Position numbers and translations under genes: made by a program
Shown here: positions 9,382 through 11,452 of the stretch, piece by piece
How the letters are laid out: each line of letters starts with the position of its first letter
Numbering within the stretch: position 1 is the first letter of the stretch
Notes under the pieces: model-generated
The model's input: only the letters and a program-made list of their open reading frames with translations
The model's database searches: none
Told to the model about the DNA's origin: nothing
Assembly: GCF_000955955.1 (NCBI RefSeq)
Contig: NZ_JYJG01000275.1
Coordinates: 1 to 12,552, forward strand
Source of the DNA: Lentzea aerocolonigenes
GTDB taxonomy: Bacteria > Actinomycetota > Actinomycetes > Mycobacteriales > Pseudonocardiaceae
Direction: 5' to 3'
Length of the DNA stretch: 12,552 bases

Positions 9382-9605
9382 TTGGGCTCAAGGATAGTCA
9401 GACCTGGCTGGATCCTTCGCGCCAATAACCCCCACGCGCCCTGCCCGCGCGGGGTTCCGGTGCTGCCGGTGGTCGGCGTTCGTTGTGGGTTTCGGTGTGC
9501 GCGCTCGATTGTATGGGTGTTTGTTCGCCTGTTCACCGATAGCGAAGTGATGCTCCGATCGGCGGCCTCCGAAAATTGTCAGACCCCTCCGATAGCGTTG
9601 CGTTC
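9382..9605. other. Divergent intergenic region hrpA / DUF4240 operon
   Basis: A 224-bp gap with no convincing gene. It holds a possible -10 for hrpA (TATCCT on the minus strand, 9391-9396); a GC-rich imperfect hairpin at 9430-9454 (CCCC-A-CGCG, 7-nt loop, CGCG-C-GGGG) without a T-tract; an AT-richer stretch around 9506-9540 with tandem TGTTCGCC/TGTTCACC (9522-9537); and a palindrome CCGATCGG at 9555-9562. The promoter element of the DUF4240 gene follows at 9563-9598. CCGATAGCG occurs twice, at 9536-9544 and 9589-9597, the second copy containing the proposed -10. Confidence 0.6.
9571..9598 (+). promoter_or_regulatory. Promoter element of first DUF4240 gene (RecA-NDp/PafBC-like)
   Basis: TTGTCAGACC (9576-9585) and TAGCGT (9593-9598) stand 11 bp apart counted from TTGTCA, and ATG follows 7 bp after TAGCGT. 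The arrangement resembles the mycobacterial RecA-independent DNA-damage promoter, TTGTCRGTGG-N8-TAnnnT, recognised with the help of PafBC; the GTGG part reads GACC here and the spacing differs by about one base. Almost the same element precedes the next gene at 10210-10237. The distance from the -10 to ATG implies a leaderless transcript. Assignment to PafBC is inference. Confidence 0.6.
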
Positions 9606-10187
9606 ATGGACCTCGATGTCTTCTGGGACCTGGTCGAAAGCTCCGCTACCGCTACCTCTGACCAGCATGAACGCCGCCTGTGGCTGACGTCGCGACTAGC
9701 GGCGCTGCCCCCTGCCGACATTCTCGGTTTCGAGACGTTGTCAAGCGCGTCACGTGGTCGGGTAAACACGTTCTCACACTGGCACGCGGCTTATGTGTTG
9801 TGCGACGGGTTGTGTTCCGCGGAGCAATTCTTCGCGTTCCAGTCGTGGGTGGTGGGGCTGGGCCGGTCGGTGCTGCGCGAGGTCGCGGCGGTGCCGGACG
9901 CGCTGGCCGACGTGCCGGCGGTGCGGACGTTGCTGGCGGTGGGCGCGGACTCGTGGCCGGACAGCGCGTGGCCGTTGTGGGCCGGGCTGGGCCGGGTGTC
10001 GCACGACGCGTTCTTCGAGGCGACCGGTCGGTCGCTGGAGAACGCGTTGAAGGTGCTGGGGTGCGTCCGGGTGACGGACGCGGGCCCGTTCACGGGCGCG
10101 GTGTGGGATCTGGACTCGCCGTTGGAGGCGGCGGTGCGGCTGCCGCGGCTGTGGGAGCTGTCGCAGGGGCTGGAGGAGGCGGCGTGA
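9606..10187 (+). CDS. DUF4240 domain protein A
   Basis: A 193-aa protein of the DUF4240 family, whose function is not known. It shows the family pattern: an N-terminal helix MDLDVFWDLVESS, a HWHAAYVLCDGLCSAEQFFAF core (canonical form W-x-AA-x-V-x-x-GG-x-S-D-D-x-F), SWVVGLGRSVLREVAAVPDALAD, then a variable C-terminal half ending WDLDSPLEAAVRLPRLWEL. It has no signal peptide or membrane segment and is probably cytosolic. ATG 9606 is chosen because it lies 7 bp after the TAGCGT -10-like hexamer and aligns with the start of the neighbouring paralogue; no Shine-Dalgarno is present, in keeping with leaderless translation. The family GG reads CDG here. It is followed after 57 bp by its paralogue, which has its own copy of the promoter. 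Confidence 0.85.
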   Translation: MDLDVFWDLVESSATATSDQHERRLWLTSRLAALPPADILGFETLSSASRGRVNTFSHWHAAYVLCDGLCSAEQFFAFQSWVVGLGRSVLREVAAVPDALADVPAVRTLLAVGADSWPDSAWPLWAGLGRVSHDAFFEATGRSLENALKVLGCVRVTDAGPFTGAVWDLDSPLEAAVRLPRLWELSQGLEEAA

Positions 10188-10209
10188 CCAGGCACGATTC
10201 ACGGCCGCC

Positions 10210-10237
10210 GAAAATTGTCAGACCCCCTCGCTAGCGT
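10210..10237 (+). promoter_or_regulatory. Promoter element of second DUF4240 gene (RecA-NDp/PafBC-like)
   Basis: TTGTCAGACC (10215-10224) and TAGCGT (10232-10237) repeat the element found before the first DUF4240 gene, with identical spacing (11 bp) and an identical 7-bp distance to ATG. The 25-bp block 10202-10226 matches 9563-9587 at 24 positions, higher conservation than the coding regions of the two genes. It sits in the 57-bp gap between the genes, so the second gene can be transcribed independently. Confidence 0.6.
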
Positions 10238-10244
10238 GCTCGTC

Positions 10245-11126
10245 ATGGACCTGAACGCGTTCTGGGCCCTGGTCGAGAGGTCGGCTTCCGAGACCTCCGG
10301 CCAGGACCGGCGGCTGGAGTGGCTGGTGGCCGCTCTGTCGGCTCCGCTGTCCTCTTCGGAGGACGCCGAGTTGCCGATGCGGCTGTCCTCAGCGGCGGCT
10401 CCTTCTCCGGCCTTCTCGTCGGCTCCGCTGTCGTCTTCGGAGGGCGTCGAGCTGCCGATGCGGCTGTCCCCGGAAGCGGCTTCCTCTCCGGCTTTCTCGT
10501 CGGCTCGGCTGTCCTCTTCGGAGGTTGCAGGACCACCGATGCCGTTGTCCCCGGCGACGGTCCCTTCTTCGGCTTCCTCGCCGGAGGACGCCGTGGTGCC
10601 GGGTGCGCTGTCCTCGTCGGCTCGGCTGTCCCCGGTAGCGGCATCGGCCTCCACAACGCCCTCCTCTTCGTCGGAGCGAGCTGTGGAGTTCGCGCTGCGC
10701 CTGGACGAGGTGCGGCGCCGGGTGGACACGTGGACGCACTGGCAGGCGGCGGACGTGATCTGCGGCGGCCTGTGCTCGGACGACGGGTTCTTCTACTTCC
10801 AGGCGTGGCTGGCCGGCCAGGGCCGGGCGGTGTTCGAGTCGGTCGCGGCGTCGCCGGACGCGTTGGCTGATCTGCCGCACGTCCAGTTCTTGGCCTCGCG
10901 TGGTGGCGTGCACGCGTGGGCCGATGACGACTGGCCGGCGTGGGAGGGCCTCGACTACGTGGCGGCCGAGGCGTTCGACGGTGATCTGGAGGCCGTTCTG
11001 GCCTCGCGCGGCTTGCAGGTGCTGGTGTCGCCGGAGCCTGAGGGCGAGCGGTGGGACTTCGCGGATCCGGCGGAGATCTCGGCGCGGGTTCCGCGGTTGG
11101 GTGCGTTGTTCGGGAAGGTGGCGTGA
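10245..11126 (+). CDS. DUF4240 domain protein B with internal repeat insertion
   Basis: A 293-aa paralogue of the preceding protein, 100 residues longer. The N-terminal helix MDLNAFWALVERS and the core WTHWQAADVICGGLCSDDGF, FYFQAWLAGQGRAVFES and ASPDALADLPHVQ are closer to the DUF4240 consensus than those of protein A. Between about residues 32 and 143 lies a Ser/Ala/Pro-rich insertion made of three 27-residue units (32-58, 59-85, 86-112) and a degenerate tail; the domain resumes near SERAVEFALRLDEVRRRV. The insertion is likely disordered. ATG 10245 lies 7 bp after a TAGCGT -10-like hexamer and matches the paralogue's start; no Shine-Dalgarno is seen. Its TGA overlaps the ATG of the next gene. 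Function unknown. Confidence 0.85.
   Translation: MDLNAFWALVERSASETSGQDRRLEWLVAALSAPLSSSEDAELPMRLSSAAAPSPAFSSAPLSSSEGVELPMRLSPEAASSPAFSSARLSSSEVAGPPMPLSPATVPSSASSPEDAVVPGALSSSARLSPVAASASTTPSSSSERAVEFALRLDEVRRRVDTWTHWQAADVICGGLCSDDGFFYFQAWLAGQGRAVFESVAASPDALADLPHVQFLASRGGVHAWADDDWPAWEGLDYVAAEAFDGDLEAVLASRGLQVLVSPEPEGERWDFADPAEISARVPRLGALFGKVA
10338..10580 (+). repeat. Three 81-bp tandem repeats inside DUF4240 gene B
   Basis: Units start at 10338, 10419 and 10500, each with TCGGCTCSGCTGTC. Units 1 and 2 agree at about 70 of 81 positions by hand alignment; unit 3 is more diverged, and a partial fourth copy (TCGGCTCGGCTGTCC) recurs near 10618-10632. Each encodes 27 residues of the form SAPLSSSE..ELPMRLS...SPAFS. 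The unit is a multiple of three, so the frame is kept in every copy number. Confidence 0.92.
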
Positions 11127-11452
11127 TGGACGTGCCGGTGGATGTGGTGCTGTGGCGGGCTCCTGGCCCGGCGTCGTCGGCGGAGGCGGCGGCCCGCTAC
11201 GCCGAGCTGCGGTCCTCGCCGCTGGGCGCGTTCGACCCGCAGGTGGCGGCGTTCGTGCGCGAGTTGCGCCAGACCTCCCCTGATCCGTCGTCGCCGGTGT
11301 CGTGGAACGAGGCGCTGACGGTCGGTTCGGACGCGGTGATCGTGCACGTGGTGTGGCCGGGCCGGCAGCAGGTGCTGGACCTGGTGGCGCTGCTGGCGGC
11401 CCGGCACGGCCTGGCGTGTTACGAGCCGGCGCGCCAGGTGGCGATGTCCTGA
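11126..11452 (+). CDS. Small hypothetical protein coupled to DUF4240 B
   Basis: A 108-aa acidic, soluble-looking protein. Its ATG shares the A of the upstream TGA (TGATG), with a GGGAAGG ribosome-binding stretch, so it is translationally coupled to the DUF4240 gene. It opens MDVPVDVVLWRAP, has a helical middle (AAARYAELRSS, VAAFVRELRQ) and ends with VHVVWPGRQQVLDLVALLAA, RHGLACYEPARQVA. The layout resembles a widespread actinobacterial group of small uncharacterised proteins beginning like SFDLAVWEG and ending HGLVCYDPQ; this is recalled, not searched. Function unknown. Its last 34 bp overlap the convergent deaminase gene. Confidence 0.8.
   Translation: MDVPVDVVLWRAPGPASSAEAAARYAELRSSPLGAFDPQVAAFVRELRQTSPDPSSPVSWNEALTVGSDAVIVHVVWPGRQQVLDLVALLAARHGLACYEPARQVAMS

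Follow-up and report, generated by a model that had tools for sequence, protein, structure and literature searches.

The closest described counterpart of the promoters discussed here is the RecA-NDp (or P1) promoter of mycobacteria, for which excerpts of one report give the consensus tTGTCRgtg-8 nt-TannnT, with gtg in lower case (PMC5656591). Excerpts of a second report describe how PafBC adapts sigma-A through contact with a -26 motif, and how single-stranded DNA activates PafBC (PMC11804915). In Streptomyces rimosus the recA promoter is given as TTGTCAGTGGC-N6-TAGggT in a portion of the original report (PMC2375139), and excerpts on Streptomyces coelicolor assign a RecA-NDp promoter and UV-inducibility to the macrodomain gene SCO6735 (PMC5087735; PMC9411070). 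For Streptomyces venezuelae, an initial search suggested that the M. smegmatis motif is not conserved, and the excerpt leaves the existence of the response open (PMC9380542).

The window, by which we mean the whole 12,552-nucleotide stretch of Lentzea aerocolonigenes DNA analysed, contains two DUF4240 genes, each of which probably has its own DNA-damage promoter of the PafBC type. The relevant features are the following.

9572-9575: A-tract ahead of the first gene's -26 element
9576..9585, + strand: putative -26 (PafBC-type) element TTGTCAGACC of the first DUF4240 gene, 95% pairwise identity across 9 Lentzea sequences
9593..9598, + strand: -10 hexamer TAGCGT of the first DUF4240 gene
~9605-9606: predicted transcription start of the first DUF4240 gene, at the ATG (leaderless), from the 7-nt spacing
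9606..10187, + strand: first DUF4240 gene, 193 aa, Pfam PF14024 with E 3.6e-25
10215..10224, + strand: putative -26 element TTGTCAGACC of the second DUF4240 gene, identical in 10/10 sequences
10232..10237, + strand: -10 hexamer TAGCGT of the second DUF4240 gene
10245..11126, + strand: second DUF4240 gene, 293 aa, Pfam PF14024 with E 1.6e-30
11126..11452, + strand: small gene overlapping the second DUF4240 stop (TGATG)

The block at 9563-9587 recurs at 10202-10226 with one mismatch in 25 bp (24/25 bases equal), and in both copies TTGTCA is followed after 11 bp by TAGCGT and after a further 7 bp by ATG, at 9606 and 10245, so that the duplicated element reported in the preliminary description stands. 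The accompanying claim that non-coding identity exceeds coding identity applies to the block only, since the stretch from block to ATG (34/43) is about as similar as the first 60 coding bases (46/60). Both window genes pass the curated PF14024 cut-off of 27 bits, with 89 and 106.3 bits, and their products are paralogues with 45% identity over 137 aa. Given this paralogy, the shared promoter could be a matter of inheritance alone: an ordinary housekeeping promoter, copied in a tandem gene duplication and unconnected to DNA damage. Yet the hexamer-sized stretch from -35 to -30 of the first promoter reads CGAAAA, not TTGACA, and we consider such an origin very unlikely. The TTGTCA of the window lies at about -29 to -24, which fits the model of a PafBC contact at -26. 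Both sites have the TTGTCR core with 11 bp to TAnnnT, as in RecA-NDp promoters; the core is followed by GACC at both, in place of gtg(g), and for this reason we class them as a variant.

Comparison between species also speaks against a housekeeping promoter, because the elements are conserved, unlike the flanks and the 7 nt ahead of the ATG. Relatives of the first DUF4240 gene were found at nine loci, all in Lentzea records, with 53-91% identity. For this gene nine sequences were compared (the window and eight loci; L109, with its different spacing, was excluded). Pairwise identity reaches 95% for TTGTCRGACC and 91% for the -10 hexamer. It falls to 70% for the spacer, 58% for the flank upstream and 42% for the 7 nt ahead of the start codon, and is 83% over the first 60 bases of the coding region. 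For the second gene (the window and nine loci, aligned on the site), the -26 element and the -10 are both 100% identical in the 10 sequences. Its surroundings give 91% for the A-tract (the 6 nt just upstream), 88% for the spacer, 56% for the flank beyond and 57% for the 7 nt after the -10. The constraint that had been read from the window's two copies is thus better supported by this interspecies footprint.

A third DUF4240 copy adjoins a divergent helicase gene in 5/9 loci (L102, L104, L106, L107 and L108), and all five of its promoters have CTGTCRGACC, the same spacing, a TA[GC]CGT -10 and an ATG 6 or 7 nt on. Not every Lentzea genome has DUF4240: a profile search of two further genomes of the genus gave no match in G143 and one, perhaps outside this cluster, in G128. 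The small gene, probably on the same transcript as the second DUF4240 gene, is present in 9/9 Lentzea loci; it has 26 homologues, the named ones in Lentzea except for one record labelled Nocardia. In Lentzea terrae (L101:3852-4417) the second DUF4240 gene has shrunk to its promoter and a ten-codon remnant, with the small downstream gene retained; this hints that the small gene may still be expressed.

Is the motif tied to DNA repair in the rest of the genome? TTGTCRGACC-N7-TAnnnT occurs at 26 sites in 10.25 Mb, and its reversed pattern at none. The TTGTCRGWSS form gives 38 sites against 1 reversed, and TTGTCR-N11-TAnnnT gives 52 against 16, so chance may account for about a third of the hits to this loosest pattern; at least one of the 52 (L021) appears intragenic by eye. 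The CCCC-N5 form first proposed for such a search proved too strict, as the bases after GACC vary. An ATG or GTG stands exactly 7 nt after 11/26 GACC sites (0.017 at random positions), and a frame of at least 60 aa begins 5-10 nt past the -10 at 14/26 GACC sites (random rate 0.115) versus 7/26 other sites. The genome scan suggested in the preliminary description thus gave a positive outcome: matches precede recA, other DNA-repair genes and DUF4240 genes. Seven of the 26 GACC sites lie ahead of repair or replication genes (recA, uvrB, uvrC, sbcD and those for the DNA polymerase III beta clamp, a PD-(D/E)XK nuclease and a DEDD/GIY-YIG exonuclease), and two are those of the window. Such company, recA and uvr genes above all, would not be expected of a housekeeping promoter. 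Its proponents could point to the many targets with no known repair role, for 19/26 GACC sites have no known repair gene downstream. Among the other targets are genes for an AraC regulator, a glyoxalase, an isochorismatase, an nSTAND1 NTPase, a Band 7 protein, an ABC ATPase and a BNR-repeat protein; seven frames have no Pfam match (L003, L008, L015, L025, L026, L027 and L028), of which L003 and L008 are weak gene calls, and three sites are copies of a dispersed repeat (L013, L024 and L029). The wider TTGTCR-N11-TAnnnT set adds, among repair and replication genes, uvrA (71 nt away), a UvrD/Rep helicase gene, ligA, a RecN-like gene and gyrB. It further includes pup, a Pup_ligase-family gene (dop by position), an ARC-type ATPase gene, an SprT/YgjP-like gene and a clgR-like gene that scores below the NCBIfam cut-off.

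The GACC site of the nSTAND1 NTPase gene (L014, contig C198) lies 84 nt ahead of it; this NTPase family is often tied to phage defence. The dispersed repeat, about 60 bp long, carries the damage-promoter motif with a hairpin directly after it, and was seen at L009, L011, L013, L017, L024, L029 and L040. The hairpin reads GCAGGGGT...ACCCCTGC in L011, L013 and L040; in the other copies it is truncated or spelled differently. Three of the sites (L011, L017 and L024) are close to contig ends. The repeat may be a damage-inducible mobile or attenuator element. Near-identical copies of the motif also recur in two genomes of other families (G030 and G050). Of the copies examined, one is 101 nt ahead of a DUF222 gene, with a divergent GACC site as well (L188:3203-4802), another has a near-identical ORF (L189:1339-2947), and another overlaps the called start of an HNH-domain ORF (L190:850-2331).

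GACC is the preferred, although not the exclusive, spelling in Lentzea. It outnumbers GTG[GC] in 24/24 Lentzea genomes (569 vs 222 sites), whereas the bias is opposite in a genus of the same family (g4, six genomes, 23 vs 120) and in one of family f8 (g14, nine genomes, 5 vs 76). Thirty other genomes of the family give 64 GACC against 136 GTG[GC] sites, with 41 of the 64 from G160, G162 and G083. These counts include repeat copies, which in our own genome make up 3/26 GACC and 2/9 GTG[GC] sites. The motif variant had been proposed as possibly lineage-specific; it dominates in Lentzea, but GACC also stands at recA and DUF4240 genes of other genera, including DUF4240 promoters in another order. 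At recA, a relaxed search of 30 genomes found an upstream motif of this type in 27 and none in G004, G150 and G144. The 27 are spelled GACC (11), GTGG (7), GTCC (3), GTAC (2) or otherwise (4), and in 5/11 of the GACC motifs the first or second letter of TTGTC is changed.

It could be argued that the GACC sites form a separate promoter class, served by ClgR, another WYL protein or an alternative sigma factor, with PafBC reading the GTGG sites. Indeed, position 6 co-varies with the spelling in our own genome (A in 21/26 GACC and 0/11 GTG sites, G in 11/11 GTG sites; Fisher p 5e-6). The upstream base triplet is differently biased too, with AAA at 11/26 GACC versus 1/11 GTG sites and TTT at 2/26 versus 4/11. 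Candidate regulators are at hand as well: WYL matches in the genome number 15, among them PafB and PafC, the clgR-like gene stands behind a GTG-type site, and binding of ClgR to the mycobacterial P1 promoter is reported in an excerpt of PMC5656591. Even so, both classes precede nucleotide-excision repair genes and have the spacing and the -10 in common, and the change of recA spelling between lineages, from GACC to GTGG, GTCC or GTAC, favours one regulator tolerating both. On balance a separate class seems improbable to us.

The candidate for this one regulator is encoded in the genome. Adjacent genes for PafB (L066:5397-6362, - strand) and PafC (L066:4420-5400, - strand) lie near pafA, which was named from its sequence by eye. 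Their products match the corresponding chains of 7p5x, an RNAP-PafBC structure from M. smegmatis, with E 2.6e-86 (PafB) and 9.2e-87 (PafC); NCBIfam lists no family for either protein. The resemblance to the RecA-NDp promoter pointed out earlier extends from core and spacing to the genome-wide link with repair genes and to pafBC; in architecture the sites correspond to the RecA-NDp (PafBC) promoter of mycobacteria, with GACC for GTGG. An addition to this explanation, rather than its opposite, would be that the GACC spelling arose from an altered DNA specificity of PafB in the Lentzea lineage. The spelling bias of the 24 Lentzea genomes, reversed in g4 and g14, would suit it, as would the residue after R[MTK]FERDK, a serine in the four Lentzea genomes sampled and in G083. 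However, PafB was detected in 30/30 genomes with both putative recognition-helix arginines invariant, no recognition-helix residue among the 30 proteins tracks GACC use, and the variable residue does not follow the GACC share outside the clade of Lentzea and G083. We hold such a change of specificity to be unlikely. A broader and rather doubtful scenario has two actinobacterial spellings, TTGTCAGACC and TTGTCGGTGG, co-existing and read differently (by two PafBC modes or two regulators), with Lentzea-like lineages having shifted most of the regulon to TTGTCAGACC and DUF4240 having been recruited repeatedly, in at least two orders.

DUF4240 genes also occur beyond the window. Profile matches were found in 12/52 chosen genomes and in 42/246 class-level genomes, 39 of these above the curated cut-off. 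Outside the window there are 74 distinct matches, of which all but the one in G296 were tested; 17/73 have xTGTC-N12-[TC]AnnnT and an in-frame start no more than 13 nt away. This relaxed form was set after some sequences were seen, and the strict form gives 4/73. Each of 11 permuted words scored 0/73, which makes DUF4240 a recurrent predicted target of PafBC; of eight wrong spacings, seven scored 0 and the eighth 1. The 17 genes belong to eight genera and four families, one family being of another order, and two are from Lentzea (L176 and L217). Some DUF4240 genes of other genera thus carry the same promoter type, a further point against an ordinary promoter copied within one locus. The link is recurrent, not universal, as 56/73 genes are without the motif. 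In one genus (g89, family f33) it is present at eight DUF4240 genes, four with TTGTCAGACC and 7/8 with a CAnnnT -10. One example of a motif-bearing gene is L182, with TTGTCGGTGGGCCGGCGTACGGT and a GTG 6 nt further on. In a quick tree of 75 rows (two too-short loci dropped, the window genes and two Lentzea copies added), the motif label needs 12 changes, at least 7 of them forced by well-supported branches, versus a shuffle mean of 18.5, and one 21-row clade, all g89, has no motif. Our own genome holds a third DUF4240 gene away from the window (L217, contig C301), with TTGTCAGACC, a CATCCT -10 and GTG 7 nt on.

What the DUF4240 proteins do is a matter for cautious speculation; we found no paper on them in the literature searched. 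The predicted structure is confident (pLDDT 93) and all-helical, and had no PDB or viral match at E <= 0.001. Six columns are invariant in 67 sequences (A62, W81, G84, G86, P97 and L100); they do not look like a catalytic set, which leads us to the weakly held guess that the protein might be a non-enzymatic helical adaptor used in damage recovery. In the second DUF4240 protein, a Ser/Pro/Ala-rich low-complexity insert is mostly made up of an 81-bp tandem repeat (3.1 copies, 10337-10584); the insert is missing from seven translated Lentzea orthologues of 183-186 aa.

PafBC as the regulator, induction by damage and the leaderless start are all three what we infer from the sequence. DNA damage would produce single-stranded DNA and thereby activate PafBC, which would insert itself between domain 4 of the housekeeping sigma factor and the promoter; its contact with the -26 element (TTGTCAGACC in this case) would replace the one normally made at -35. 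Transcription from TAGCGT would begin at the A of the ATG, giving two leaderless mRNAs, the second also carrying the small overlapping gene. A PafBC-type promoter predicts a role in the damage response for DUF4240, an uncharacterised family, and the motif can be used to search for the PafBC regulon in bacteria other than mycobacteria. GACC with a CAnnnT -10, as at some DUF4240 genes in a genus of another order, bears directly on the question raised for Streptomyces venezuelae. Moreover, one activator reading GTGG and GACC at the same promoter would pose a concrete structural question.

Among known systems, LexA/SOS is likewise a damage response, but its GAAC-N4-GTTC box was not found near the DUF4240 promoters of the window (9400-9640 and 10150-10260); recA of the same genome has one such box upstream as well as a RecA-NDp-type motif. 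SCO6735 is, like the DUF4240 genes, tied to the damage response through a RecA-NDp promoter; its protein family is unrelated to DUF4240, and its induction has been measured, whereas that of the DUF4240 genes is predicted. The Streptomyces rimosus recA promoter resembles the Lentzea sites in core, spacing and -10 type, with GTGGC there and GACCC here. Finally, the mycobacterial RecA-NDp/P1 promoters have in common with the Lentzea sites the TTGTCR core, the 11 bp to TAnnnT and the placement before recA and uvr genes. They differ in the letters after the core, tgg in mycobacteria and ACC in most Lentzea sites of this type, and in Lentzea this promoter type also stands ahead of DUF4240 genes.
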